From Candidatus Polarisedimenticolia bacterium (GTDB lineage: Bacteria > Acidobacteriota > Polarisedimenticolia > Gp22-AA2 > AA152), in contig DASTZC010000287.1 of the NCBI GenBank assembly GCA_035764505.1, positions 1 to 40,306 of the forward strand: 40,306 bases of DNA, read 5' to 3'. How positions within the stretch are numbered: the stretch's first letter is position 1; each line of letters begins with the position of its first letter. The translations under genes were made by a program, and so were the position numbers. The notes under the pieces are model-generated. The model did no database searches, was not told where the DNA came from, and worked only from the letters and a program-made list of their open reading frames with translations. This document shows positions 1,810-16,073 of this stretch, one piece after another.

Positions 1810-3141
1810 CTACATCGACAGCTCGGCTTCCTCCGACAGGAAGTAGGAGCCGCAGACCCGATCCAGGGTCGTGGCGTCGAGCGACGGCTCGCCCCCGGCG
1901 AAGCGCGCGGCATCCACCACCTTGTCCAGGAGGTCGCGCGGATGGCAGCAGCGGACCGGGATCCCCTGCTTGCCGTAGTACTCCTCGAACAGGTAATCCA
2001 CCGCCCATTCCCCGCCGGCCACGTGGTGCCGCTCGCACTCGCGCAGGAAGATCTCGCGGTATTCGGCGCGCGACGGATCGGTAATGGCGATCTTGTAGCG
2101 GATGCGCCGCAGGAACGCCTCGTCCACCAGGTCGTGCGGACGCAGGTTGGTGGCGAAGATCACGAGGCTGCGGAAGGGGACCGGGAACTTGCGACCGGTG
2201 TGCAGCGTCAGGTAGTCCACGGCGCGGTCCAGCGGCACGATCCAGCGGTTCAGCAGGTCGCGCGGCTGGACGAGCTGGCGTCCGAAGTCGTCGAGGATGA
2301 AGACGCCGCCGTTCGACTTCATCTGCAGCGGCGCCTGGTAGAAGCCCTCCCGCTCGTTGAAGATGAGATCCAGCATCTCCAGCGTCAGCTCGCCGCCGCT
2401 GAAGACCACGGGCCGGCGGGCGCGCACCCAGCGGCGATCGCGCAGGTCGCCCGACAGCGGCGTGTCTTCCGATCCGGCCGTCTCCTCGTCCCCATGGAAT
2501 ACGGGGTCGTAGACCTTGATCACCTGCTGGTCCATCTCGACGGCGTGCGGGATGTGGATGGCTCCCCCCAGGGCCCGCCCGATCGCCTCGGCCAGCATCG
2601 TCTTGCCGTTGCCGGGGGCGCCGTACAGGAACAGGGTCTTGCGCGCCGCCACCGCCGGACCGACGCGCTCCAGCAGCCCGGGCTGCATCACGATGTGGGA
2701 GAAAGCCTCGCGCAGCCGGTCGGCGGGAATGCGCTCCAGCCCGAGGTTCTGCAGCGTCACGCGCCGGGAGTATTCGGCCAGGGACACCGGCGCCGGGCCG
2801 ACATAGCGGCTCACGGCCATCGCCTCGCGGGCCCGGTCCCGCCCGGCGGAGAGGATGCAGTATCGATAGGCCGCGCGGCTGGGGCCGTCGTTCCCCTTCA
2901 TCTCGATGAGTCGCTCGCGCTTGAGCGCCTCGAGCGTCCCTTCCAGGACGTTGAAGGGCAGGCGCAGCGCGTCGGCGAGCTCGGTGCCGCGCATCTCGTT
3001 CTGGTAGTACAGGGTCTTGAGCGTCAGGTCGAAGAGAAAGGCGGCCGAGAGCCCGGTTTCCTCGGGGGTCCTGGGCGCGCGGGGAGTTTCCGAGTCGTGC
3101 GTCGTAGCGTTGATGACTTCCATCGCGGTCCGCGTGCTCAT
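1810..3141 (-). CDS. winged-helix AAA+ ATPase, last gene of the Tad operon
   Basis: A 443-residue cytoplasmic protein. Residues about 30-100 (LSAAFLFDLTLKTLYYQNEM to the CILSAGR region) look like a winged-helix unit; the AAA+ domain follows with Walker A GAPGNGKT at 174-181, Walker B GVFILDDFG at 279-287, sensor-1-like FATN at 329-332 and arginines at 345-346 that could act as finger residues. No membrane segment or signal peptide is seen. It starts one base after the DUF192 stop with AAGGAGG six bases upstream, so it is almost certainly co-transcribed with the pilus genes. It is not one of the classical Tad proteins. I infer an accessory role in pilus assembly, remodelling or regulation, not a known function. 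Family (AAA+) is sure; role is not. Confidence 0.8.
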   Translation of the reverse strand: MSTRTAMEVINATTHDSETPRAPRTPEETGLSAAFLFDLTLKTLYYQNEMRGTELADALRLPFNVLEGTLEALKRERLIEMKGNDGPSRAAYRYCILSAGRDRAREAMAVSRYVGPAPVSLAEYSRRVTLQNLGLERIPADRLREAFSHIVMQPGLLERVGPAVAARKTLFLYGAPGNGKTMLAEAIGRALGGAIHIPHAVEMDQQVIKVYDPVFHGDEETAGSEDTPLSGDLRDRRWVRARRPVVFSGGELTLEMLDLIFNEREGFYQAPLQMKSNGGVFILDDFGRQLVQPRDLLNRWIVPLDRAVDYLTLHTGRKFPVPFRSLVIFATNLRPHDLVDEAFLRRIRYKIAITDPSRAEYREIFLRECERHHVAGGEWAVDYLFEEYYGKQGIPVRCCHPRDLLDKVVDAARFAGGEPSLDATTLDRVCGSYFLSEEAELSM

Positions 3142-3142
3142 C

Positions 3143-3496
3143 TCATGCCTCCTTGGGTTCGATTTCGATCCGGTCGCCGATGCGGGTCCGGCTGCGCCGG
3201 ACGGTGCCTGCCGGGAGCTCCAGGACGGTCCTCGCCTTCCAGCGGATCGGGGCGAAGCGTCCGGGGGAGAGGTTCTCCTCCAGCCCCACGACGTTGCGGT
3301 CGCGGTCCAGGAAAACCACGTCGATCGGAAAGGCCATGCCGTGCGTGTGGATGCTCCGGCACGGGACGATCCATAGCGCCTCGCCGCTCTCCAGCCCCGT
3401 GCGCCCGGTCAGGCCGCGCAGGCGGGTCCAGAAGGTGTCGGCCTTGACCACCTGAGTGGCCAGCTCGGCTTCGCTGCGGGGATTCACGGCGCGCAT
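3143..3496 (-). CDS. DUF192 family protein in the Tad operon
   Basis: A 117-residue protein with the DUF192 hallmarks: an early R-x-x-G-L block (TRLRGLTGR), IVPCRSIHTHGMAFPIDVVFLD in the middle and a closing V-L-E-L-P-A-G segment. DUF192 is a small beta-rich domain of unknown function found in bacteria and archaea, often exported; here no signal peptide is obvious, so it may be cytoplasmic. It sits 10 bases after tadC and 1 base before the AAA+ ATPase, so it belongs to the pilus transcript. The start ATG at 3496 is the first plausible one after the tadC stop. The function is unknown. Confidence 0.85.
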   Translation of the reverse strand: MRAVNPRSEAELATQVVKADTFWTRLRGLTGRTGLESGEALWIVPCRSIHTHGMAFPIDVVFLDRDRNVVGLEENLSPGRFAPIRWKARTVLELPAGTVRRSRTRIGDRIEIEPKEA

Positions 3497-3506
3497 CGCA
3501 GCCCCC

Positions 3507-4466
3507 TCATTTGGCCGTCGCCTGGATCGTGTCGCTGAAGATCCGGGCGAGGTTCAGGAAGGCCGGGCCGAGGATCACCACCAGCAGCGCGGGGAAGATG
3601 CAGAACAGGAGCGGGAAGATCAGCTTGATCGTCGTCTTGGCGGCGGCCTCCTCGGCGCGCTGGATGCGCTCGGTGCGCAGGCAGTCGGAGTGGACGCGCA
3701 GCGACTTGGCGACGCTGGTCCCGAACTTGTCGGTCTGGATCAGCATGGCGGCCAGGGCGATGATGTCGTCGACGCCCGTGCGCTCGCCCAGGTTCTTGAG
3801 GGCCTCGACGCGCGTCCTGCCGGCCCGGATCTCCAGATTGACCAGCTTCAGCTCCTCGCTGATCTCCTGGTGCGTCCGCTCCAGCTCCTCGGAGACCTTC
3901 ACGATCGCCTGGTTCAGCCCCATGCCGGCTTCCACGCAGATGACCAGCAGGTCCAGCGCATCCGGCAGGCTCAGCTTGAGGCGGTGCTGGCGGCCGCGCG
4001 CCTGGCTCTTCAGGACCATCTTGGGCAGCATCATGCCGAGCAGCGCCAGCAGGGCGGTGATGAGGAAGCGTGTCGCCGGCATCATGTGGATCTTGAGGGT
4101 GCCCAGGAAGAACGCCGTGGGCATGCACACCATGCAGACCAGGCGGATGGTGTTGTAGGTGGACAGCGCGGTGCCGGTGCGGTGCCCCGCGTAGTGCAGC
4201 AGCTTCTGGGTCTTGGAGGCACTGGCCATCGAGATCGGCGTGCGCAGCATGCGCTTCCGCAGGAAGCCGGCCTGGCGCGAGTCCACCGGCGTGGTGGCCA
4301 GTGCCGGGCCGAGGCCCTCCGTCGCGGCCGCGATCGAGGATTCCGGGAGCCGTCCCAGGCGATCCACCGCGGCGCGGCGGGGCTTGAGGGCCAGGTAGGC
4401 GGCGGCCGACAGCGAGATCGTGAACGTGGCGATCAATCCGAAGAGGACGGTCATCTCGATATTCAT
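3507..4466 (-). CDS. tadC: Tad inner-membrane platform protein TadC
   Basis: A 319-residue type II secretion F-domain membrane protein. An N-terminal membrane segment (residues about 5-27), two central ones (about 125-160) and a final hydrophobic stretch (LLFCIFPALLVVILGPAFL) surround the cytoplasmic F domain, which contains LPDALDLLVICVEAGMGLNQAI, the typical TadB/TadC block. With TadB it forms the inner-membrane platform on which the CpaF ATPase acts to push Flp subunits into the pilus. It starts 3 bases after tadB ends and is followed 10 bases later by the DUF192 gene. Its position after tadB and its length match TadC. Confidence 0.93.
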   Translation of the reverse strand: MNIEMTVLFGLIATFTISLSAAAYLALKPRRAAVDRLGRLPESSIAAATEGLGPALATTPVDSRQAGFLRKRMLRTPISMASASKTQKLLHYAGHRTGTALSTYNTIRLVCMVCMPTAFFLGTLKIHMMPATRFLITALLALLGMMLPKMVLKSQARGRQHRLKLSLPDALDLLVICVEAGMGLNQAIVKVSEELERTHQEISEELKLVNLEIRAGRTRVEALKNLGERTGVDDIIALAAMLIQTDKFGTSVAKSLRVHSDCLRTERIQRAEEAAAKTTIKLIFPLLFCIFPALLVVILGPAFLNLARIFSDTIQATAK

Positions 4467-4469
4467 CGG

Positions 4470-5438
4470 CTATACCTCGATGTTGACGATCTTGCGGATC
4501 CACAGCAGCCCGACCAGCTGCATCACCCCGGCGGCAATCAGCAAGCGGATACCCCAAGTATCGTTGAAGATGATCTTCATGTACTCGTAGTTCAGGCAGA
4601 GCGTGATGAGTCCCATCACCGGCGGCAGGCACATCAGGATGATGCCGGTCAGCTTCGCCTGCGCCGTGTGCACCTTGAGCTGCCGCCAGATGCGGAAGCG
4701 CTCGCGGATGGTGGTCGAGATCTTTCCCAGCAGCTCTGCCAGGTTGCCGCCCGACTGGCGCTGGATCAGCACCGCCACCACGAACAGCTTGAGGTCGAGC
4801 AGGGCGACGCGATCCAGCAGGTTCATCAGGGCGCTCTTCATCGGCAACCCGTAGTTCTGCTCCTCGAAGACCCGCTGGAACTCTTTGCCGACCGGGTCAG
4901 GCATCTCGTCGGCGATCATCTTGATGCCGGTGTTGAAGGCGTGGCCGGCGCGGATGGCCCGGGCCAGCAGGTCGATGGCGTCAGGGAACTGCGCCTCGAA
5001 GCGGCGGAAGCGCTTGTTGCGGATTCGGACCACGATCAGGATCGGCAGGAACGCCAGCGCCACGCCGATCGGGATCGCCAGAAGCACCCCCAGCCGGAAC
5101 CCCAGGGCGCCGAGGAAGCCGGCCACGGCGCACACGGCGATCCACAGGGCGAACGTACCGGTCTTCATCTTGAGGTCGGCCTGCTCCAGCAGACGCTTCA
5201 TCTTGCCGCCGGCGCGGAAGCGCAGCAGCAGCTGCTGCAAGGGGCCGATGCCGGAGAGCGTCGAGTCCTTGAGGATGCTGAGCTCCTCCTCGCCGGCTCC
5301 GGCGGCCGCCAGCACGGCGGAGACGCGGGCCGTCATGAGCTTGTCCACCGAGCGGCTCTGCTGGCGGACCAGCAGCATGCTCACGCCGATCACCATCAGC
5401 GAGGTGGCGCAGAAGACCAGGAAGATGGGCAGCAACAT
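4470..5438 (-). CDS. tadB: Tad inner-membrane platform protein TadB
   Basis: A 322-residue type II secretion F-domain protein. It opens with a membrane segment (LLPIFLVFCATSLMVIGVSML), has a hydrophobic pair near residues 95-130, then the F domain with FPDAIDLLARAIRAGHAFNTGI and LFVVAVLIQRQSGGNLAELL, and ends in two more membrane segments. This is the TadB layout; the partner TadC lies immediately downstream. Start ATG 5438 is 3 bases from the cpaF stop, implying translational coupling. The role is the platform of the Flp pilus machine. Confidence 0.93.
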   Translation of the reverse strand: MLLPIFLVFCATSLMVIGVSMLLVRQQSRSVDKLMTARVSAVLAAAGAGEEELSILKDSTLSGIGPLQQLLLRFRAGGKMKRLLEQADLKMKTGTFALWIAVCAVAGFLGALGFRLGVLLAIPIGVALAFLPILIVVRIRNKRFRRFEAQFPDAIDLLARAIRAGHAFNTGIKMIADEMPDPVGKEFQRVFEEQNYGLPMKSALMNLLDRVALLDLKLFVVAVLIQRQSGGNLAELLGKISTTIRERFRIWRQLKVHTAQAKLTGIILMCLPPVMGLITLCLNYEYMKIIFNDTWGIRLLIAAGVMQLVGLLWIRKIVNIEV

Positions 5439-5441
5439 GGG

Positions 5442-6788
<1,347 letters not shown>

Positions 6789-6810
6789 GCGCTCCTCCTT
6801 CTACGGCCGC

Positions 6811-8049
6811 TCAGGCCGAGGCTCCATGATGGGAAATGCGGGCCATGCCCTTCGGAAAGATCCCCAGCACCTTGCGCCGGGCGGGGGCCGCGGCCTCGCC
6901 GCCGGGCGACAGGGCCGTGGCGTATCCCTCGAAGCAGGTGGCCAGGCCGTTGCGGTTGCGACTGACGAACGGGATCCCGTCGTTGAGGGCTTCGGGGATC
7001 GAGCGGGTGTCCTGGGGCACGGTCCAGGAGACCTTGAGCTCGAGCACCTTCTCCGCCTCGTCGAGCGTGATGTAAGGGTTGCGGTCGTAGCGGTTCACCA
7101 CCAGGCGCACCAGGTCGCGCGCCACGCCGTTCTGCTCGAGCCGGCGCAGGCACCACTGGGCGCGGCGCAGCGCCAGCAGGTCGAGCGTGGTGATCACGTG
7201 GACCATGTCGGACTGCCCTAATCCCGCCTGGGTGGAGGGCTCGGTCAGCTCGCCGGTGTTCACCACCACGAACTCGTACTGCTCGCGCACGAACTGGAGG
7301 AGCTGGGCGACGCGCGCCGGGTCGGTGTTGACGGCCTTCTCGAGCGACTCGCTCGCCGCCAGGACCTCGAGGCCCGAGACGTGCCGCAGGACCATGCCGT
7401 TGAGAAGCTCGCGGTCCATGCGGTGGGTGTTGGCGACCGCGTCGCTGACGCTGAAGCTGGGGCTCAGGTTCAACAGGAGCGCGGCGTCGCCGGCGGCGAG
7501 GTCCAGATCCACCAGGAGGGTGGAGCGTCCGGCGCTCGCCAGCGTCACCGCCAGGTTGGTCGCCAGGGTGGTGGCGCCGCAGCCGCCCTTCGCCGAGAGG
7601 AAGGTCATGACGCGGCCGCGCGTCCCCTTGTGGGTATGCACGGCGGGGGCGGAGCGCTTCCAGAACCTGGCCACCGCCTCCGAGAGGACCTTGCCGTCCA
7701 GGGGCAGGGGGATGAACTCGGCGGCGCCGGCCTGCTGGGCCCGGAGCATCAGCCCCGGATCGCTCATGCCGCCGGCCACGAAGACGCGCGGTGAGGGATG
7801 GCGGTCGAAGATCTCCTGCACGAGGGCCATCGAGGCGCCATCGGCCTCCGTGTCCACCAGGATCAGGGAGGTCTCGCTCGACTCCAGGACCGTCAGGCAG
7901 CCGTTCAGGCGCGCCGAGCGCGGTCCGCTTTCCATCGCCTTCACATGAATCGAATCATGCTCGGAAACCGCCTTTTTCACCTGCTCCAGGAAGGCGGGAC
8001 GCTCGGTGACGACGAACAGGTCGGTCGGGGGGGTCTTCGAAGTCTTCAT
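6811..8049 (-). CDS. cpaE: Tad pilus polar-localisation ATPase CpaE/TadZ
   Basis: A 412-residue MinD/ParA-like protein. Residues 1-130 form a receiver-like but phosphorylation-incompetent domain (LILVDTEAD, RVFVAGG, AGAAEFIPLPL). The ATPase domain has the deviant Walker A KGGCGATT at 154-161: the leading Lys is kept but the usual second Lys (GKT) is Ala, as is normal in TadZ/CpaE. The family positions the pilus machine at the pole. ATG 8049 overlaps the stop of the preceding tadG-like gene by one base (TAATG), so the longer in-frame extension upstream is not used. Part of the tad operon. Confidence 0.92.
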   Translation of the reverse strand: MKTSKTPPTDLFVVTERPAFLEQVKKAVSEHDSIHVKAMESGPRSARLNGCLTVLESSETSLILVDTEADGASMALVQEIFDRHPSPRVFVAGGMSDPGLMLRAQQAGAAEFIPLPLDGKVLSEAVARFWKRSAPAVHTHKGTRGRVMTFLSAKGGCGATTLATNLAVTLASAGRSTLLVDLDLAAGDAALLLNLSPSFSVSDAVANTHRMDRELLNGMVLRHVSGLEVLAASESLEKAVNTDPARVAQLLQFVREQYEFVVVNTGELTEPSTQAGLGQSDMVHVITTLDLLALRRAQWCLRRLEQNGVARDLVRLVVNRYDRNPYITLDEAEKVLELKVSWTVPQDTRSIPEALNDGIPFVSRNRNGLATCFEGYATALSPGGEAAAPARRKVLGIFPKGMARISHHGASA

Positions 8050-9131
8050 TATTCGACAAGCCTCACGGTTTGGAGTCCGCCCGGGGATGCTCCTTGCCCG
8101 ATGCCGGAAGTGGGGAGAATGCGGGCTGTAACAGTTCCGTTGCCGCTGATGTCCTCGAGGAAAAGGCTGGCGATGTTGGTGACGACGAAGCTCTGCTTGC
8201 CTGAGGTGAACGGAAACCGCGGATCGAAGAACGGGATGCGGATGATCCGTGGGCTGCCGGTCTCTCCGTACTTGCTGCCGGTAATCACCTTGTTGGCGGC
8301 GTCCCACTTGGCGCCGGAGTCCTGGGCGATCAGGTCCTCGACCCCCTGCTTGGTCGGTCCGACCAGGTTGCCGTTCTGGGTCCACAGGGTGTCGCCGATG
8401 GAAATGGTGCTGGGATTGCAGCCGGAGATGTTCTCGCGGTAGCGATCGCCGCCGACGTCGGGAGAGCCCGGAATCGGCAGATCGATCGGAAAGAACTGGC
8501 CCGGCGCGATGGCGGAGCCGGGATTGGCCTGCTTGACGATCAGCTGTACGCCGATGTCGAAGCCGTTGTTGCGGTAATCGGTGGCGTAGGAGGTCACGCC
8601 TTTCTCGTAGTACTCGCCCGCGTCGTACTTGCCGTTGCCATTGGTGTCGGCGAAGGCGTCGGGAAGAGCCCAGGGTTTCATGCAGCTGATCGAATTACCC
8701 AGGACCACTTCGGCGGTGGCGCAGGCCGAGACGTCGACCGAGTTGCGCCAGATGCGGGCGAAGAAGGTCGGCACCGGATTGCCTCGGGCCGCGGTGCGCG
8801 GCACGCAGACCCGGCAGCGCTTGAGGTTCAAATCGACCGTGACATCGCCGTTGTTGATGGCGACGGGGGTCGACAGCACCTGATTGTAATTGGCGTACTC
8901 CACGCCCTTGGCGGTCGCCTTGGCCGCGACGCCGGCGTTCAGGGTGTTGAACATCAGCATGTGTCCGCCGCAGGCCAGAGCCCCTGAGTCGGCGGCGTTC
9001 TGGCACTGGGTGCGCGCCGTGTACAGAACGCCGGCATCGATCGCCAGCGCCGCGGCGCCAATCAGGACCAGCATGACCAGGGCCACGAAGACCATTGTGG
9101 CGCCTTTCTCATCCTTCCAAAGCTGCGACAT
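8049..9131 (-). CDS. TadG-like minor pilin / pilus assembly protein with an EF-hand-like loop
   Basis: A 360-residue protein beginning with a short charged leader and one membrane helix (MVFVALVMLVLIGAAALAID), then ARTQCQNAADSGALACGG, the hallmark of the TadE/G-like (Tad domain) family. Unlike Flp and TadE here, the residue after the possible cleavage Gly is not followed by Glu at +5, so processing by the prepilin peptidase is uncertain. The rest should lie in the periplasm or on the pilus. It has a CxxC (residues 106-109) and a 12-residue stretch DTNGNGKYDAGE at 162-173 that matches a calcium-binding EF-hand or dockerin loop. It sits 27 bases after cpaC and overlaps cpaE. A tip or anchoring role is inferred from the family. 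Confidence 0.85.
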   Translation of the reverse strand: MSQLWKDEKGATMVFVALVMLVLIGAAALAIDAGVLYTARTQCQNAADSGALACGGHMLMFNTLNAGVAAKATAKGVEYANYNQVLSTPVAINNGDVTVDLNLKRCRVCVPRTAARGNPVPTFFARIWRNSVDVSACATAEVVLGNSISCMKPWALPDAFADTNGNGKYDAGEYYEKGVTSYATDYRNNGFDIGVQLIVKQANPGSAIAPGQFFPIDLPIPGSPDVGGDRYRENISGCNPSTISIGDTLWTQNGNLVGPTKQGVEDLIAQDSGAKWDAANKVITGSKYGETGSPRIIRIPFFDPRFPFTSGKQSFVVTNIASLFLEDISGNGTVTARILPTSGIGQGASPGGLQTVRLVE

Positions 9132-9158
9132 GTTGCACCTCGCTCCTATGCCTGGCCG

Positions 9159-11078
9159 TTACTTGGACGCCACGGGCGTCTGGGCGGCGGATTCGTCGAC
9201 CGGCTTCGGGGTCTCGAGCTTGCTGGTCTTCTTGGGCTTGTCCAGCTCGAAGCTCTCGTCCCACTGCGGAGGCTGAGGGGCCTGGCCGGGCGGATTGGGC
9301 CTCACGAAGGTCGGGGTCGCCACGACCAGCAGCTCGCTGCGGTTCTTCTCCAGGTTCTTGCTGCGGAACAGGTAGCCGAGGCCCGGGATGTCGCCGATGA
9401 GCGGAATCTTCTTCTTGACCTGAGCCAGGTCGGAGGAGTACAGCCCGGCGATGGCGAAGCTCTGTCCTTCCTTGAGCTCGATCTCGGTATCGGCGCGCCG
9501 CGTCTTCAGGGCCGGGATGGCGAAGCCGGAGAGGACCACGGCGTTGGCGAAGTCGAGCGAGGAGACCTCGGGAGTGACCCGCATGACAATGGTGTCCTTG
9601 TCGCGCACGGTCGGAGTGAAATCGAGGCTGATGCCGAACTTCTTCCATTCCACGGTGACCGAGGTGAAGCCGGCGCCCGCCTGCGCGACCGGGACCGGGA
9701 TCTCGCCGCCCGCCAGGAAGCTGGCCTTCTGGCCGTCGGCGGTGATCAGGGTCGGCTCGGCCAGGACCTGGGCCAGGCCGCGCTGCTTGAGGGCGGTGAT
9801 GAAGATCTCCCACTTGTCGCGGAAGCTGAAGCCGTAGACGTTGATGGCGTCGTTGAAATTGAAGTTGGGACCGACCGGGGTATTGGCGAAGTTGCCGCTG
9901 GCCGCGGGGCCGCCGAGATTGGTCATTCCCTCGTGGTCGCCGCGCGGGTTGAGCGGATCGAAGCGCACCAGCGAGGCGGACAGATCGGTCAGCGCCTGCT
10001 TGCTGACCTCGGCGAACATGATCTTGAGCATGACCTGCCGCCGGCCCTCGGCCGGGTAGGACATGTTGTTCACGACCTTGCCGGTATAGTCGGTGGCCAG
10101 CTTGACGGCCTTGTCGCCGGTCGCCGGATTGCTCACGGTGCCGTACAGGACGATGGTGTCCTTGGAGGCGCCCACGGCGATGTGCTCGTCGGGAAAGAAC
10201 TCCTGGAGACGGCGGGAGAGCGCCTCGGTGTCCATCTGGACCGTCAGGTTGTAGGTGCGCGAGGCGCCGCCGCGGAACCAGAGCACCAGGCTGGTGGTCC
10301 CGTGCGTCAGGCCGTTGATCAGGATCTGCTGGGGAGAGACGACCACCGCGTCGGCAATCGCCGGATTGGCGACGGAGACGCGCGTGACGGACGATTCCAG
10401 GTCGACGGTCAGCGACTTGCCGCTGGAGACGACCAGCTCGCGCGTGCTCTCGCCTTCGTCAGTCTTCACGGTGCCGGCATTGAGGCTCAGACTGGCGTGC
10501 GTGGGCATGACCGTGGCGCTCTTGGCGACCAGCGGGGTAGCCGGGGCGCTCTGGGCGACCACCGGGGGAGCCGGAGTGCTCTGGGCGACCACCGGGGGAG
10601 CCGGAGTGCTGACGGGGACGGTGACTTCCGGGGCCGTCTCCGCGCTCACCATCAAATCCACCATCAGGTCGTTGCCGTCGAGGCGGACGCGGCGCTCCAC
10701 CGAAGCGGCACCTTCGAAATCGATGCGGGTCGCGGTGCGGCCCTTGCTGCCGTTGGCCGAGCGCACCACGATGCGGCCGACCTCCTTGGTTCCGGGGGTC
10801 ATCGTCGTCTCGGACTGCCGACAATCCACGCCGTCCATGGTCATCGTCCAGCTCCCGGCCTGGATCGAGGAGAGGGAGTAGCCCAGCGGCTGGGTACCAT
10901 GGAAGGTCACGCGCGTGCCTCCCGTGGGCGCCGGCTGGGTCTCGACCGAGCGCAGCTCCACGACGGGAGAAGGGGTTTCCTGGGAGCGGGCCGAGAGACT
11001 GGTCGCCGCCAGGATGAGGCTCAGGGCGAACAGGGTCAGCTTCCGGGTCACGTGCTGGGGGGATCGTCGGCTGTTCAT
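9159..11078 (-). CDS. cpaC: Tad outer-membrane secretin CpaC/RcpA
   Basis: A 639-residue exported protein. The signal peptide is residues about 1-31, with a hydrophobic FALSLILAATSLS core. An AMIN-like beta domain follows (about 38-140), then a Pro/Ala repeat linker (about 155-190), the pilus-type secretin N-domain (ELVVSSGKSLTVDLESSVTR), a BON-like domain (about 285-345) and the C-terminal secretin domain with VLAEPTLITADGQKASFLAGG, LKEGQSFAIAGL and LIGDIPGLGYLF. It forms the outer-membrane pore for the Flp pilus. The N-terminal AMIN-like domain, which in other secretins binds peptidoglycan, and the repeat linker make it longer than typical CpaC. It starts 2 bases after cpaB. Confidence 0.93.
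   Translation of the reverse strand: MNSRRSPQHVTRKLTLFALSLILAATSLSARSQETPSPVVELRSVETQPAPTGGTRVTFHGTQPLGYSLSSIQAGSWTMTMDGVDCRQSETTMTPGTKEVGRIVVRSANGSKGRTATRIDFEGAASVERRVRLDGNDLMVDLMVSAETAPEVTVPVSTPAPPVVAQSTPAPPVVAQSAPATPLVAKSATVMPTHASLSLNAGTVKTDEGESTRELVVSSGKSLTVDLESSVTRVSVANPAIADAVVVSPQQILINGLTHGTTSLVLWFRGGASRTYNLTVQMDTEALSRRLQEFFPDEHIAVGASKDTIVLYGTVSNPATGDKAVKLATDYTGKVVNNMSYPAEGRRQVMLKIMFAEVSKQALTDLSASLVRFDPLNPRGDHEGMTNLGGPAASGNFANTPVGPNFNFNDAINVYGFSFRDKWEIFITALKQRGLAQVLAEPTLITADGQKASFLAGGEIPVPVAQAGAGFTSVTVEWKKFGISLDFTPTVRDKDTIVMRVTPEVSSLDFANAVVLSGFAIPALKTRRADTEIELKEGQSFAIAGLYSSDLAQVKKKIPLIGDIPGLGYLFRSKNLEKNRSELLVVATPTFVRPNPPGQAPQPPQWDESFELDKPKKTSKLETPKPVDESAAQTPVASK
10518..10607 (-). repeat. 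three in-frame 30-bp tandem units in cpaC
   Basis: Units at 10518-10547, 10548-10577 and 10578-10607. The last two are identical and the first is diverged. Each encodes ten residues of the type TPAPPVVAQS, so copy-number change keeps the frame and only alters linker length between the AMIN-like and secretin domains. Confidence 0.9.
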
Positions 11079-11080
11079 GG

Positions 11081-11908
11081 TTAGAAATTCTCCGTTGTAC
11101 GCTTATTTCCGCGGATTACTTCCACGGTGTCCGCGGGTTTGGGGGCGGGGTGGGCGCGGGGCGCGGCGGCCGGGGCCGCCTTGGGGGTGCCTCCGACCAT
11201 CGGTCCGAGCAGGGCGCCGTTGGTGGTCACGGGATCCATGTCGAGGCTGTTGCGCAGCGCCAGCTGCAGATCGCCCTCGTGGCTGGCCAGCGTCAGCTTC
11301 TCGGACTCTTCCGGAGTCACCAGCAGGGTGATGACGTTGACGGTCTCCGGTTTGCCTTCCTCGTCCTGCTCGATCTTCTGGCCGGCGGCCAGCACTTCGA
11401 CGTTCTGCAGGATCATCTTGCTGGCGCTTTTCGCCTTCTCACCGCCGGGGTTGACGCTGACGACGACGTCGACCCGCGTGCGAGGCAGGACGAAGCCGGC
11501 CACGCCGATGATCTCGTTGACCCGCACGCTGACCGCTCGCTTTCCCTTGGGAATCACGCTGGCCAGTCCGCCGCCGGCGTCTTTCGGCGCGAGCCGGGCC
11601 TCGAGGATCGGCTCGCCCGGGACGACGCCATCCATGATGGCGCGGCCCATGACCGCCTGGGGATCGGAGAAGGAGCCTTCGGGCCTCACCGAGGAGGCCC
11701 ATTCCACGCTCTTCACGTGCTCCGGCTGCAGCACCGTGCCGTAGGGGAGCTTGGTGGTGGCCACCACCAGCGGGAAAGTGGGGGCCGCCTGGTTGGTGGG
11801 CGTGGCTGAGGCCTGCCGCTCCTTGAGCATCCTGTAGGTGAGGATGCTGGCGGCGCCGCCCGAGCCGATGGCCAGGATCAAGATGCCGATCACGAGAATC
11901 CTTCTCAC
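11081..11908 (-). CDS. cpaB: Tad pilus assembly protein CpaB/RcpC
   Basis: A 275-residue protein with an N-terminal membrane anchor (RILVIGILILAIGSGGAASIL) and a periplasmic SAF domain (about 48-115: LVVATTKLPYGTVLQPEHV, GVVPGEPILEARL), then the CpaB C-terminal region RAVSVRVNEIIGVAGFVLPRTRVDV. In known Tad systems RcpC/CpaB associates with the secretin and may bind the cell wall. The C-terminal tail (about 240-265) is rich in Pro and Ala and probably disordered. It is 2 bases from cpaC and 55 bases after tadE. ATG 11908 follows a purine-rich ribosome site (GAGGAAG). Confidence 0.92.
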   Translation of the reverse strand: MRRILVIGILILAIGSGGAASILTYRMLKERQASATPTNQAAPTFPLVVATTKLPYGTVLQPEHVKSVEWASSVRPEGSFSDPQAVMGRAIMDGVVPGEPILEARLAPKDAGGGLASVIPKGKRAVSVRVNEIIGVAGFVLPRTRVDVVVSVNPGGEKAKSASKMILQNVEVLAAGQKIEQDEEGKPETVNVITLLVTPEESEKLTLASHEGDLQLALRNSLDMDPVTTNGALLGPMVGGTPKAAPAAAPRAHPAPKPADTVEVIRGNKRTTENF

Positions 11909-11963
11909 GTTCTTCCTCCTTAAACGCTCGGTCCCTTGCGGGTTCCGGCAGCGGTCCGTTCCG

Positions 11964-12389
11964 TTACTCGTTGCGCATCACGCTCTGCGCGGTGATGTTG
12001 ATGTCGGCGCCGGCGGTCGCGCCGGTGTTGATCATGCGAATCACAGGTCCCACGTACATGAAGGAATAGGGGACGGTCACGGTGATGGACACCTGGGTCC
12101 CGGTGCCGCCGTCCACGCCGGCGCCGCCGATGACGACGGAGGCGTTGTTCTTCACGTTGGCGGTGCTCAGGTAGCTGTTGACGCGCGCGACCACCGCGGC
12201 GTCATTGGTGAAGCCGGTGGGCAGCGCGGCCAGGCGCGCACCCTCGCGGGCGGCGTTGGCGAGAACCTGATAGAGGTTCCAGGCCCGGCCGAACTCGCAG
12301 ATGCCGACCACCATGAGCAGCAGCAGCACCACGACGAGCGCGAACTCCACCAGGTTCTGTCCAGAGCGATCGGATCGGAATCGATGCAT
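11964..12389 (-). CDS. tadE: TadE-type pseudopilin
   Basis: A 141-residue protein with a short basic leader (MHRFRSDRSG) cut after Gly10, then QNLVEFALVVVLLLLMVVG with Glu at +5, the prepilin peptidase site and helix of TadE minor pilins. The continuation EFGRAWNLYQVLANAAREGARLAA is a TadE signature. The C-terminal half is a Gly/Ala-rich, beta-like outer part with no cysteines. The ATG at 12389 lies 2 bases from the stop of the peptidase gene; the frame is open further upstream only because it shadows that gene. A minor pilin of the Flp pilus. Confidence 0.9.
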   Translation of the reverse strand: MHRFRSDRSGQNLVEFALVVVLLLLMVVGICEFGRAWNLYQVLANAAREGARLAALPTGFTNDAAVVARVNSYLSTANVKNNASVVIGGAGVDGGTGTQVSITVTVPYSFMYVGPVIRMINTGATAGADINITAQSVMRNE

Positions 12390-12391
12390 CT

Positions 12392-12919
12392 TCAGCTCCA
12401 CCGGCTCAGCAGCACCACGAGGGTGCCCGCCGCCACCGGAACGGCGTAGGGAATCTTCAAGGTGCCGGGATTCCCGAGGTTGAGTACAGGAGAAGGCCGC
12501 AGCCCTCCCGTGAACCAGAAGGCGAACAGCTGCGCGATCCCTTTCAGCGTGGACAGAAGCCGACCGTTGGCCAACGCGACCCCGAGGGCCAGAACGCCCC
12601 CGGCCAAAGCGCCGACCAGGGCGACGGCAAACAGGTCCCGCGGGCCCAGGATCGAGCCGAGGCAGGCCAGCAGCTTCACGTCGCCGGCACCCATGCCGCC
12701 GAGCGCGAAGAAGGGGAGGAAGATCGCCAGTCCGAGCAGCGCTCCGGCGAGGCTCCACCCGAGGGCGGCCCAGCCGCCGCGCAGGGTATTGAGGAAACAG
12801 CCGGCCGCGAGGCCGGCAAGGACCAGCTGGTTGGAGATGCGACGGGAGCGCAGGTCGGTGAAGCAGGCGATTCCCGCGACGATGATGGCGGCCAGATAGA
12901 TGATGAGTGTAAGTTTCAC
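12392..12919 (-). CDS. cpaA: Tad prepilin peptidase (CpaA/TadV type)
   Basis: A 175-residue polytopic membrane protein of the A24 aspartic peptidase family. The two catalytic aspartates lie in FTDLRSRRISN (Asp22) and GMGAGDVKLL (Asp80). It lacks the N-terminal methylase domain of PilD, as usual for the short CpaA/TadV type. It cleaves Flp and TadE leaders at the G|xxxxE site on the cytoplasmic side of the membrane. It begins 21 bases after flp (12941) and is followed 2 bases later by tadE. Confidence 0.93.
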   Translation of the reverse strand: MKLTLIIYLAAIIVAGIACFTDLRSRRISNQLVLAGLAAGCFLNTLRGGWAALGWSLAGALLGLAIFLPFFALGGMGAGDVKLLACLGSILGPRDLFAVALVGALAGGVLALGVALANGRLLSTLKGIAQLFAFWFTGGLRPSPVLNLGNPGTLKIPYAVPVAAGTLVVLLSRWS

Positions 12920-12940: not shown

Positions 12941-13132
12941 CTAAGAAAGCGCCGCAAAAGCGGTTGTTATGTTTCCCCACAAGCTTGCCAGGCCGTTTCC
13001 GACCGTCACGAGGGCCACGATGACGACGACGGCGATCAATGCGGCCAGCATCCCGTACTCGGCCAGGTCCTGACCCTCAGTCCTCGCGAGAAGGTCGCCC
13101 GGGAACAGCCTTGAAATCCGTTGCCGGAACAT
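12941..13132 (-). CDS. flp: Flp-type pilin, second copy in the operon
   Basis: A 63-residue Flp/Fap pilin. The leader is 20 residues (longer than usual), the cleavage site is G|QDLAEYG with Glu at +5 and Tyr at +6, and the helix is AALIAVVVIVALVTVG. The mature chain, about 43 residues, ends TAFAALS. It has GGAGG seven bases before the ATG. It is separated from the first flp gene by a 118-base gap holding a strong hairpin, and lies 21 bases before the peptidase gene, so it is probably expressed with the assembly genes at a lower level than the first copy. Confidence 0.93.
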   Translation of the reverse strand: MFRQRISRLFPGDLLARTEGQDLAEYGMLAALIAVVVIVALVTVGNGLASLWGNITTAFAALS

Positions 13133-13190: not shown

Positions 13191-13224
13191 AAAAGTGGGA
13201 GGGGGCTCGCTCGAGCCCCCTCCC
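13191..13224 (-). terminator. terminator-like or attenuator hairpin after the first flp gene
   Basis: A perfect inverted repeat, 12 bp stem with a 4-base loop (13197-13224), starts 27 bases after the stop of the first flp gene. On the minus strand it is followed after AC by TTTT. As the rest of the pilus operon has no clear promoter of its own, it is best read as a partial terminator or 3' stabiliser that raises pilin over assembly proteins. Confidence 0.75.
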
Positions 13225-13250: not shown

Positions 13251-13418
13251 CTAGGGGTTCAGGGCCTTCGCGATGTTGTTGAACACCGTCTGAATCTGGC
13301 CGCCCAGGGCCGTCACCGCCGCGATCACGACGAGCGCGATCAGCGCGATGAGCAGTGCGTACTCGGCCAGATCCTGGCCCTCTTCGCTTCTCCACAGACG
13401 GGTCATCAAAGCCTTCAT
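13251..13418 (-). CDS. flp: Flp-type major pilin, first gene of the Tad operon
   Basis: A 55-residue pilin: leader MKALMTRLWRSEEG, cut site G|QDLAEYA with Glu at +5 and Tyr at +6, helix LLIALIALVVIAAVTALGG and a short tail ending NIAKALNP. The mature form is about 41 residues, normal for Flp. The ATG at 13418 has a strong GGAGGAGG ribosome site and lies about 40 bases from the expected start of the sigma54 promoter. Being first, with its own hairpin behind it and the best ribosome site, it is likely the major pilin. Confidence 0.95.
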   Translation of the reverse strand: MKALMTRLWRSEEGQDLAEYALLIALIALVVIAAVTALGGQIQTVFNNIAKALNP

Positions 13419-13466
13419 GGTTCCTCCTCCTAAAAGTGATGTTTGGAAAACCCGTTGCGCGGGATA

Positions 13467-13483
13467 TGGCAAGCGGCGTGCCA
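13467..13483 (-). promoter_or_regulatory. sigma54 promoter of the Tad operon
   Basis: On the minus strand the sequence reads TGGCACG, four bases, TTGC: a perfect core of the -24/-12 consensus, with GG and GC ten bases apart. Transcription should start near 13457, about 40 bases before the flp ATG. A sigma54 activator gene lies 1.5 kb away. Confidence 0.88.
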
Positions 13484-13572
13484 TGCGGCGTGCAATGCGG
13501 CAAAGGGCTTGCGACGCAAGGGTTTCCACGGATTTGCAGGGAGGAGAGACCGGCAGTGCGAGGGGTTTGTGT

Positions 13573-13651
13573 GTGCAACTTGCACGCGAGTCTGCAAAGT
13601 CGTGCAGAGTCGGCCGCGGCGCGGAGGCGGTGAGCGTGCAAGCGGTTGCAC
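13573..13651. promoter_or_regulatory. cluster of three TGCA-centred palindromes, likely enhancer sites
   Basis: GTGCAA-C-TTGCAC at 13573-13585, TCTGCA-N6-TGCAGA at 13591-13608 and GTGCAA-N4-TTGCAC at 13636-13651. Centres are about 20 and 44 bases apart, near two and four helix turns. They lie about 90-170 bases upstream of the minus sigma54 promoter and 120-200 upstream of the plus one, the usual place for enhancers bound by sigma54 activators. A weaker site is at 13663-13672. Confidence 0.65.
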
Positions 13652-13769
13652 ACCGACGGAAGGTTTGCAGACACGCTCGCAGGGCGGAACACTCCTTTTC
13701 GTGGGAACGAATGCCGGCAAAGGCCCGCCACCCAAGGAGAAGATGGCGCGCGTGGCGGCTGCCGTCTTT

Positions 13770-13785
13770 TGGCACGGAGATGGCA
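13770..13785 (+). promoter_or_regulatory. sigma54-like promoter of the GAF gene
   Basis: TGGCACGGAGATGGCA keeps GG and GC ten bases apart and differs from TGGCACG-N4-TTGCA by one base in the -12 block. A start near 13797 would give a roughly 100-base leader containing the 23-base repeats. Confidence 0.55.
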
Positions 13786-13790
13786 ATAGG

Positions 13791-13859
13791 CACCGCCGTG
13801 CCGGTCAATAAGACACCGCCGTGCCGGTCAATAGGACACCGGCGTGCCGGGCCAATGGA
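13791..13859 (+). repeat. three tandem 23-bp units upstream of the GAF gene
   Basis: Units at 13791-13813, 13814-13836 and 13837-13859 with the theme CACCGCCGTGCCGGTCAATA. The first two differ at one position; the third is more diverged. They fall in the predicted leader of the GAF gene. Confidence 0.85.
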
Positions 13860-13897: not shown

Positions 13898-14941
13898 ATG
13901 ATTCAAAAACAGAAGGGGACGAAGGGGACGGCGCAGGGGGTCTCCCTGGCTGCCGAGATGGAGCAGCGCTACGGCGTGCGCCGCCCGCCCGAGATTTGCG
14001 CCGAGATGGGCCGGCGTCGCTGGCGCGAGCTGAACCGCCTGCTGCATGCCTGCATGGTGCTGCACGGCGCCGGCCGCGATCGGCGCCCGCTGCAGAGGGT
14101 TCTGCATACCGCCGCCGGACTGGTGGGAGCGAGCCGCGGGGTGTTCTACCTCAAGAGCGACGCCGAGATGACGCTCGAAGCGGCGGCTTCGCAGGGCTTC
14201 ACGGGAGGGATCCCCGAGGGGCTGCGCGGTGGAGGCGAGATCTCGCCGGCCGCCATGCGGGCCGGCAAGCCGCTGCTGGTCGCAGGTCCCGAGGAAGTGC
14301 GCCTGCAGTCCGAGCTTGCCATGCTGGGCGAGCCGGCAGCCGTCAGCTTCCCGATCCAGATGGAAGGGCAACCCTGGGGCGCCATTCTCCTGGGCCGGGA
14401 GAGCCGCTTCGAGGAAGACGAGGCCATCCTGCTGTGGATGTATGCCCTGGTGGTGGAGGACGCGCTTCCGAGCCTGTCGCGCGGCGAGCGCGCTCTGCGA
14501 GTGGAACCCGACTCCACCCCGGGCGGCCTGGTGTCGCCGGAAGCTTTCCGCTCGCTCGTGGACGCCGAGCTGCAGCGGCTGCCTTCGGGAGCTCGCGCCT
14601 GCACGCTTCTGAAAATCGCCTTCCGCCCGCAGGAGGGCATTGCCCGCCGCGGGGACGAGCTGCGCAGTGCCCGCAGCCTGCGGGTGCTGCGCTCCGTGCT
14701 GCGCCCCGTCGACCGCGTGGCTCCCAGCCAGGCGGGAGATCTCTTCGTCCTGCTGCCGGAGACGGGCGGAACGGAAGGAGAGCAGGTCGGGCAGAAGATC
14801 CGCCGGGCCCTGATCCAGTCCCGCGTGCTGGGCGACGAATCCGAGGTGATCCGGGCGCTGACGGTCCGGCGGGCGAGCTGCCCGGAGCATGGGCATCGGA
14901 GCGCCGCGCTCTTCCAGGCGCTCGAAGCGATCGCCGGCTGA
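13898..14941 (+). CDS. GAF-domain signalling protein with a possible degenerate GGDEF-like C-terminus
   Basis: A 347-residue soluble protein. Residues about 50-195 look like a GAF domain (LQRVLHTAAGLVGASRGVFY, then AVSFPIQMEGQPWGAILLGR). The C-terminal 120 residues (from VSPEAFRSLVDAELQRL) resemble the fold order of a GGDEF domain (LLKIAF, RVLRSVLR, DLFVLLPET) but carry no GG(D/E)EF motif, so cyclic-di-GMP synthesis is not expected. ATG 13898 has AGGAG seven bases upstream. The gene faces the Tad operon across a shared sigma54 control region and abuts, tail to tail, the sigma54 activator gene that lacks its own sensor domain. I infer it senses a signal for that activator; this is not shown by the sequence. 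Confidence 0.6.
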   Translation: MIQKQKGTKGTAQGVSLAAEMEQRYGVRRPPEICAEMGRRRWRELNRLLHACMVLHGAGRDRRPLQRVLHTAAGLVGASRGVFYLKSDAEMTLEAAASQGFTGGIPEGLRGGGEISPAAMRAGKPLLVAGPEEVRLQSELAMLGEPAAVSFPIQMEGQPWGAILLGRESRFEEDEAILLWMYALVVEDALPSLSRGERALRVEPDSTPGGLVSPEAFRSLVDAELQRLPSGARACTLLKIAFRPQEGIARRGDELRSARSLRVLRSVLRPVDRVAPSQAGDLFVLLPETGGTEGEQVGQKIRRALIQSRVLGDESEVIRALTVRRASCPEHGHRSAALFQALEAIAG

Positions 14942-14942
14942 C

Positions 14943-16073
14943 TCAGGGCTCCACGGGATCCTCTTGCGGATCGGAGGTCGAGCGCCGGGTCAGCGTGTAG
15001 TCCTTGATCTTGTAGAGCAGGGAGCGATAGCTCATCTCGAGCTCACGGGCGGCGCGGCGGCGGTTCCAGTCATGCCGCTCCAGGGACTGGAGGATGGCGG
15101 CGCGCTCCGCCTGCTCCACCGCGTGGCGCGCGACCTCGCGCAAGGACCGGGGGGACGGCAGCGCCGGCTGCGCCGCGGACGCCGGCTCCGGAGCTCCCGC
15201 GGCCATGCCGCATGGCACGTCCTCGAGGCTCGCATCCAGCTCGGCGTCTCCCCCGAGCAGGATCATGCGCTTGATGGCGTTCTCCAGCTCGCGGATATTG
15301 CCGGGCCAGGCGGAGGCGCCGAGCAGCGTGAAGAAGTCGCGGCCGGGATCGGCAAGCTCCGGACGGTTGTACTGGGTCGCGTAGCGCCGCAGGAAGTGCA
15401 GCGCCAGCGATTCGAGGTCCTCGCGCCGCTCGCGCAGCGGCGGAACGCGCAGGGAGACCACGCCGAGCCGGTAATAGAGGTCCTGTCGGAAGGTTCCCGC
15501 CTTGATGTCGCGCGTCAGATCGCGGTTGGTGGCGGCCAGCACCCGCACGTCGACCTCCACCACCTGGCGCCCGCCCACCCGGTACAGCTTTCTCTCCTGC
15601 AGGACGTGCAGCAGCTTGGCCTGCAGGCGCGGCGGAATCTCGCCGATCTCGTCCAGGAAGAGCGTTCCTCCCGAGGCGGCTTCGAACTGCCCCATGCGGT
15701 TCTCGACGGCGCCGGTGTAGGCCCCGCGCATGTGGCCGAACAGCTCGGATTCGAGCAGCCCTTCGGACAGCGAAGCGCAGTTGAGATGGACGAAAGGACG
15801 ATCACGGCGTGTGGAGTTGTGGTGGATCAAACGGGCCAGCAGGTCTTTGCCGACTCCCGTCTCACCCAGGATCAGGACGGTCTCCTGGGACGGCGCCACC
15901 CGCAGGGCCTTCTGCTCGACGCTCTGCATGGCGGCGCTGCCGCTGGGAACGTACTGCCAGTCCCCGGAGGCGTCGCGCCACAGCGAAGCCTGCCGCGGCG
16001 GACGCGCGGGGTTCTCCTTGCTTTTCTCGAGCTGGGAATGCCCCTGCGCGAACGCTGAATCTGCCGAGTTCAT
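14943..16073 (-). CDS. sigma54-dependent transcription activator without receiver domain
   Basis: A 376-residue bacterial enhancer-binding protein. After a short 45-residue N-terminus comes the AAA+ domain: Walker A GETGVGKD at 70-77, the sigma54-contact loop GAYTGA at 117-122 (Tyr in place of the usual Phe, which is tolerated), Walker [12 protein letters not shown] at 135-145 and [12 protein letters not shown] later. A Fis-type helix-turn-helix closes it (about 326-361, [20 protein letters not shown]). There is no receiver, GAF or PAS domain, so it should act constitutively or through a partner, as in PspF or HrpR/S. The ATG at 16073 has AAGGA nine bases upstream; the longer in-frame extension is not supported. 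It is the obvious regulator of the neighbouring sigma54 Tad promoter. Confidence 0.92.

Follow-up and report, generated by a model that had tools for sequence, protein, structure and literature searches.

A predicted family-specific sigma54 module with an enhancer-like array shared by a Tad pilus operon and the gene of a putative c-di-GMP receptor

How is the expression of a Tad pilus matched to that of a signalling protein if both are transcribed outward from the same intergenic gap? This question is raised by a 40,306-nucleotide stretch of a Candidatus Polarisedimenticolia genome (hereafter the window), in which a gap of 479 bp, flanked by a Flp pilin gene on the minus strand and a divergent gene for a 347-aa protein on the plus strand, contains two outward-facing sigma54 elements (Table 1). 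On the minus strand, the two pilin genes are followed by genes for an A24 prepilin peptidase, TadE, RcpC/CpaB, a secretin, a TadG-like protein, a TadZ/CpaE-like protein, TadA/CpaF, TadB, TadC, a DUF192 protein and an AAA-like protein. Flp pilin, prepilin peptidase, RcpC, secretin, TadZ-like, TadA, TadB, TadC and TadE/G components were thus all found, as expected of a Tad/Flp locus. We compared the window with three relatives (G001, G002 and G003), two from the same genus and a third from the same family. The major Flp pilin is 98%, 96% and 84% identical in G001, G002 and G003, respectively, and the gene order from the peptidase to TadZ is preserved in the relatives.

Table 1. Positions of predicted genes, promoters and DNA motifs in the window
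Feature	Position	Strand	Evidence or remark
Remaining Tad operon	1810..12919	-	Pfam
Second, Flp-like pilin	12941..13132	-	PF04964 E=2e-6, below cut-off; syntenic in relatives
Strong stem-loop 3' of the major pilin gene, GGGAGGGGGCTCG/CGAGCCCCCTCCC then ACTTTT	13196..13223	-	Fold -30 kcal/mol
Major Flp pilin, 55 aa, Tad operon gene 1	13251..13418	-	PF04964 E=3e-10
Predicted -24/-12 sigma54 promoter, pilus-facing, TGGCACGCCGCTTGCC	13468..13483	-	16.7 bits, top score in window
Enhancer-like palindrome S1 GTGCAACTTGCAC (TGCA-N3-TGCA)	13573..13585	.	Perfect; N3 dyad at matching relative position in G001
Enhancer-like palindrome S2 CTGCAAAGTCGTGCAG (TGCA-N6-TGCA)	13592..13607	.	14-bp core identical in G001
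Enhancer-like palindrome S3 GTGCAAGCGGTTGCAC (GTGCA-N6-TGCAC)	13636..13651	.	Perfect; position and spacing kept in G001
Predicted -24/-12 sigma54 promoter facing the GAF-degenerate GGDEF gene, TGGCACGGAGATGGCA	13770..13785	+	15.1 bits, rank 2 in window
Three 23-bp tandem repeats AGRCACCGCCGTGCCGGTCAATA, presumed 5' leader of GAF gene	13788..13856	+	Between GAF-side promoter and start codon
GAF + degenerate GGDEF protein, 347 aa	13898..14941	+	GAF PF01590 E=4.5e-8
Putative I-site RxxD (RPVD, residues 269-272)	14702..14713	+	Five residues before degenerate motif, 4/4 genomes
Degenerate GGDEF motif QAGDL	14729..14743	+	AAGDL, PTGDL and PQGEL in relatives
Orphan sigma54 activator, AAA+ and Fis-type HTH	14943..16073	-	PF00158 E=9e-68, HTH_8

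Scanning the window with a simple weight matrix of approximate frequencies, based on the published -24/-12 consensus, returned the divergent pair as the only two sigma54 sites at or above the threshold of 12 bits. A core-perfect promoter towards the pilus operon and a near-perfect one towards the GAF gene had been claimed in a first-pass annotation of this DNA, and both were borne out: the pilus-facing element (TGGCACG-N4-TTGC) matches the consensus exactly and the GAF-facing element retains the core GG-N10-GC. The promoter score was reached in 0 of 600 dinucleotide shuffles of the region on the pilus side and in 5 of 600 on the GAF side. GG at -24 and GC at -12, at ten-base spacing, were present in both elements in all four genomes. 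The genome also encodes rpoN (PF04552 matches on contigs C217 and C94), and we infer that sigma54 would act at both promoters in vivo. Six copies of the exact 15-mer TGGCACGNNNNTTGC are present in the 4.46-Mb genome, the pilus-facing promoter being one of them. The other five lie at C101:26603, C201:25129, C210:965, C220:4140 and C257:4720, and at least two of these contigs (C201 and C220) also carry sigma54 activator genes. PF04552 matches on C217, C94 and C31 suggest two rpoN genes and a short fragment at a contig end, which may be real or an effect of assembly or binning.

Between the promoters lie three palindromes, all of which had initially been described as built on GTGCAA/TTGCAC. This description holds for two of the three, as S2 shares with the other sites only the TGCA core, while S1 and S3 form perfect inverted repeats of GTGCAA/TTGCAC, interrupted by 1 and 4 bp, respectively. 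The half-site spacing is 7 bp in S1 versus 10 bp in S2 and S3. We refine the putative motif to GTGCA-N6-TGCAC, of which S3 is the only exact instance in the intergenic region. The palindrome centres (13579, 13599.5 and 13643.5) follow one another at steps of 20.5 and 44 bp, or about 2 and 4.2 helical turns, in good agreement with the two and four turns noted earlier. Counted from the inferred starts at 13457 (pilus) and 13796 (GAF gene), the centres of S1, S2 and S3 are located at -122, -143 and -187 on the pilus side and at -217, -197 and -153 on the GAF side. Inverted repeats about 80-200 bp upstream that are conserved together with the promoter are typical of enhancers, and the array corresponds to this pattern, its farthest site lying 217 bp from the GAF-gene start. 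TGCA-N6-TGCA has 31 copies genome-wide, two of them in the promoter gap, and the occurrence of two such dyads in the region had p = 7.5e-4 in dinucleotide-preserving shuffles. Searches of the intergenic region for consensus sites of NtrC, NifA (TGT-N10-ACA) and IHF and for a sigma70 promoter gave no match.

The family is represented by four genomes including the source, two of them incomplete, and, as the four are related, their agreement counts only partly as independent evidence. Querying with the GAF protein gave strong matches in G001, G002 and G003 only. In all three, the gene order Tad operon - pilin / GAF gene - activator - DNA polymerase III subunit - thymidylate kinase was kept, with the GAF gene of G002 divided across two contigs. 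The pilus-facing TGGCACG-N4-TTGC was retained in each of them, and the GAF-facing element read TGGCACG-N4-TGGC or TGGCACG-N4-TCGC. Palindromes were kept in 3/3 relatives as well, in variable number, so that a lack of conservation in close relatives, named beforehand as grounds for refutation, was not found. The TGCA starts follow at 7, 12, 10, 34 and 10 bp in the window and at 7, 13, 10, 35 and 10 bp in G001, the dyads of G002 comprise one separate N6 dyad and a run of four TGCA, and G003 has a single N6 dyad. A three-site enhancer as conserved trait had to be given up, as G003 has a single canonical dyad and G002 counts four TGCA-N6-TGCA pairs; since the number differs among relatives, three sites are inessential. 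The dyads were in excess over shuffled sequences in every relative (0/4000 for G001, 0/4000 for G002 and 0.002 for G003). A combined pattern, consisting of a dyad, 86-116 bp and TGGC-N7-TNGC, was present at the locus in all four family members; it matched seven times genome-wide in the three relatives, always at the pilus/GAF locus, and twice in total among another 37 genomes from the class. With identities down to 38-57% for the GAF protein and 67-76% for the activator, the persistence of such short sites at constant spacing carries weight. The run of four TGCA in G002 (C202:37804-37837; L144 about 11805-11838; TGCACCGGTCTGCACAGCCGTGCACGGCCCTGCA) proceeds at exact 10-bp steps and resembles one phased array more than a set of individual palindromes. 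Among Tad loci elsewhere in the phylum, none of six with a recognisable pilin had a sigma54 site of at least 12 bits upstream; ten more loci had no recognisable pilin.

Since the arrangement is conserved in 4/4 family members and nearly absent elsewhere in those genomes and in the class, a pair of outward-facing sigma54 promoters flanking a common enhancer-like array is well supported. We consider it probable that the locus represents a family-specific sigma54 module that co-expresses the Tad pilus and a predicted c-di-GMP receptor from a shared enhancer. The array of GTGCA-N6-TGCAC-type sites would act as one common enhancer, from which a sigma54 activator, most likely the adjacent sensor-less protein of the NifA/NtrC type, would loop to either promoter and activate the pilus operon jointly with the divergent gene. 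The predicted receptor might then adjust either the pilus machine or the activator. Of the control from a shared enhancer proposed in the first-pass annotation, promoters and array are thus upheld by conservation, while for the protein encoded at 14943-16073 as the cognate activator synteny and co-occurrence are the evidence. The support for the module comes from sequence analysis throughout. Several observations count against it: no IHF-like site that could assist the presumed DNA looping was found, the half-site spacing varies, G003 has one dyad, the genome offers about 25 possible activators, and the GGDEF assignment of the divergent protein is weak in single-sequence searches and in its structural model.

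The divergent gene had been labelled as a GAF gene. The GAF domain was confirmed, but the more informative part, a C-terminal degenerate GGDEF domain with an I-site, had been missed. With a family profile, the C-terminal part matched PDB GGDEF chains at E=1e-6; at the level of the single sequence the homology is weak, and the window protein stays below Pfam GGDEF detection. An AlphaFold (AF2) model was poor overall (mean pLDDT 59.7) and better in the C-terminal domain (mostly about 70-84), and this low-confidence model gave the GAF-GGDEF cyclase 4zmu and PelD 4etx as top Foldseek matches. None of the four genomes retains the catalytic motif, which reads QAGDL, AAGDL, PTGDL and PQGEL. At the canonical spacing before it, each genome retains an RxxD motif (RPVD, RGVD, RPAD and RPSD) with invariant Arg and Asp, which we take to be the allosteric c-di-GMP I-site of GGDEF domains. 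The aligned structure of GcbC, a c-di-GMP-bound form, carries RPAD at the same position. A GAF domain followed by a degenerate GGDEF domain is also the architecture of PelD from Pseudomonas aeruginosa (PDB 4etx and 4dn0; Foldseek E 6e-7 to 2e-6), for which c-di-GMP-bound structures have been solved, and the hallmarks of a PelD-like receptor were recovered, namely the GAF domain, the GGDEF fold with lost catalytic motif (on the profile match and the low-confidence model) and the I-site. PelD serves Pel polysaccharide secretion, whereas the window gene is paired with a Tad pilus. Because the GAF and degenerate GGDEF domains are combined with a retained RxxD, the protein is most likely a c-di-GMP receptor and not a cyclase; c-di-GMP would be its presumed ligand, and the pilus machine or the activator its presumed target. 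About a dozen further GGDEF matches in the genome make c-di-GMP signalling plausible. A competing explanation, to which we assign an appreciable but clearly lower likelihood, is that the protein does not sense c-di-GMP and works as a small-molecule GAF sensor or scaffold in which the GGDEF remnant is structural. A domain that escapes Pfam would fit this explanation, and the Asp of RxxD is frequent across GGDEF folds generally; set against it are the joint retention of Arg and Asp in the very genomes that have all lost the catalytic motif, and the c-di-GMP-bound structures of PelD, the nearest inactive structural match. This explanation is limited to the divergent gene and compatible with the shared enhancer.

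As claimed at the outset, a sigma54 activator is encoded nearby, at 14943-16073 and convergent with the GAF gene. It combines an AAA+ domain with Walker A, a GAFTGA-type loop and a Fis-type HTH, as is characteristic of bacterial enhancer-binding proteins. The loop reads GAYTGA in the window protein and GSYTGA in the relatives; the variants GAYTGA and GSFTGA are considered functional for sigma54 activation (PMC6615313). No recognisable domain, and no receiver domain, was found before residue 46, hence the designation as sensor-less. The NifA model is the best named NCBIfam match (E 1e-107) and the NifA structure 9qq6 the nearest among solved structures. Unlike NifA itself, the activator scores far under the equivalog cut-off (361 versus 529 bits), aligns to profile positions 170-530 only, with the N-terminal part missing, and has no NifA-type site at the locus. 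Its orthologs at the syntenic position (67-76% identical, this family only) have a well conserved HTH, while the best match in all other genomes searched was about 50% identical and matches in named genomes were at paralog level only, up to 47%. From its position, synteny and co-occurrence with the array, we infer that this protein would bind the dyads. Another activator of the genome, for example a kinase-driven response regulator, might instead bind them while the neighbour works elsewhere. The genome provides about 25 PF00158 proteins for this role, the neighbour lies outside the pilus operon, beside the DNA polymerase III subunit and thymidylate kinase genes, and the published Tad precedent is a response regulator (PMC3333781; PMC4641369); we nevertheless regard this assignment as unlikely, given that the syntenic ortholog is restricted to the family with the arrangement and adjoins it in 4/4 genomes with its HTH well conserved. 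That the palindromes are ordinary sites of a repressor or other pilus regulator, with -24/-12 motifs that use distant enhancers or are partly fortuitous, would suit the variable half-site spacing, the scarcity of sigma54 sites near the genome's other TGCA dyads and the fact that dyads by themselves do not identify an activator, but is highly improbable in view of their enhancer-typical position about 120-220 bp from both starts, a dyad and -24/-12 pairing that is locus-specific in four genomes, and promoter scores above nearly all shuffles on both sides in the window and the three relatives.

Within the proposed module, the receptor could also act on its neighbour, which is a more novel option than an action on the pilus motor. 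The sensor-less activator would then be controlled in trans by the convergent c-di-GMP-reading protein, as a split sigma54 switch, an idea that we put forward as speculative and rather doubtful. If it is true, the pilus and its own sensor would form a c-di-GMP-gated feedback loop on a Tad operon, since the shared enhancer would also drive the gene of the sensor.

The locus had been presented as a kind of regulation that is not well described, which proved too strong. Flp pilin genes and the Tad operon DORF39640-DVU2129 of Desulfovibrio vulgaris are targets of DVU2114, a response regulator that works with sigma54 and whose binding motif is conserved in a few species (PMC3333781; PMC4641369, Table 1). 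As in the window, a sigma54 activator motif there precedes the Flp pilin genes heading a Tad/Cpa operon; unlike DVU2114, a two-component response regulator, the window activator has no receiver domain, and the accessible text on DVU2114 describes no divergent GAF-GGDEF gene on a common enhancer. The divergent orp1/orp2 operons of D. vulgaris are co-activated by the single-component DVU2106 via intervening palindromes, with IHF (PMC3897727, citing Fievet et al. 2011). They share with the window the divergent sigma54 promoters, the palindromes between them and a single-component activator; in contrast, the orp targets are linked to division and IHF sites are needed, whereas no IHF site was seen in the window gap. 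With these two precedents, neither sigma54 control of Tad genes nor divergent operons under one activator is new. A literature search that covered few subscription journals gave no report of a predicted c-di-GMP receptor gene that lies divergent to a Tad operon, shares its enhancer and has a sensor-less activator next to it. We rejected Pectobacterium as a further sigma54-Tad precedent, as control of flp/tad by the sigma54 activator VasH was not confirmed (PMC3767616), and the Ralstonia and Caulobacter literature examined yielded no sigma54-Tad link. In Caulobacter, Tad pili are discussed as surface sensors that raise c-di-GMP (PMC12918737), and the literature found says little about feedback of c-di-GMP onto the expression of Tad genes. 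A compact conserved module would make such a c-di-GMP/Tad loop directly testable in E. coli K-12, and the locus adds a second lineage with predicted sigma54 command of Tad pili, beyond Desulfovibrio and the few known co-bearers.

A search for the same palindromes before other genes of the genome revealed one further promoter-linked locus, while dyads elsewhere mostly had no sigma54 site nearby. This single additional match to the combined pattern is located on contig C215 (L203 1607-1835), where overlapping dyads TGCAGATATCTGCAACGCTTTGCA are followed by a strong -24/-12 site GTGGCATGGTCATTGCC about 124 bp farther and by a gene for a predicted secreted Kelch-repeat protein of 1225 aa with extra C-terminal tandem repeats. 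The protein is possibly a second regulon member and an adhesin-like surface protein. As the probability of a chance occurrence is put roughly at 0.05-0.3 and the arrangement was not found in the three relatives, the match is suggestive only.

The 23-bp repeats in the presumed leader of the GAF gene have no other copy in the genome and were not seen in the leaders of the relatives; an interpretation as transposon ends was rejected on these grounds. Rfam returned zero family matches in the window. On the pilus side, the stem-loop separates the major pilin gene from the rest of the operon, and a similar hairpin occurs in 3/3 relatives. It probably serves as a partial terminator or mRNA stabiliser that raises pilin above the other Tad proteins.
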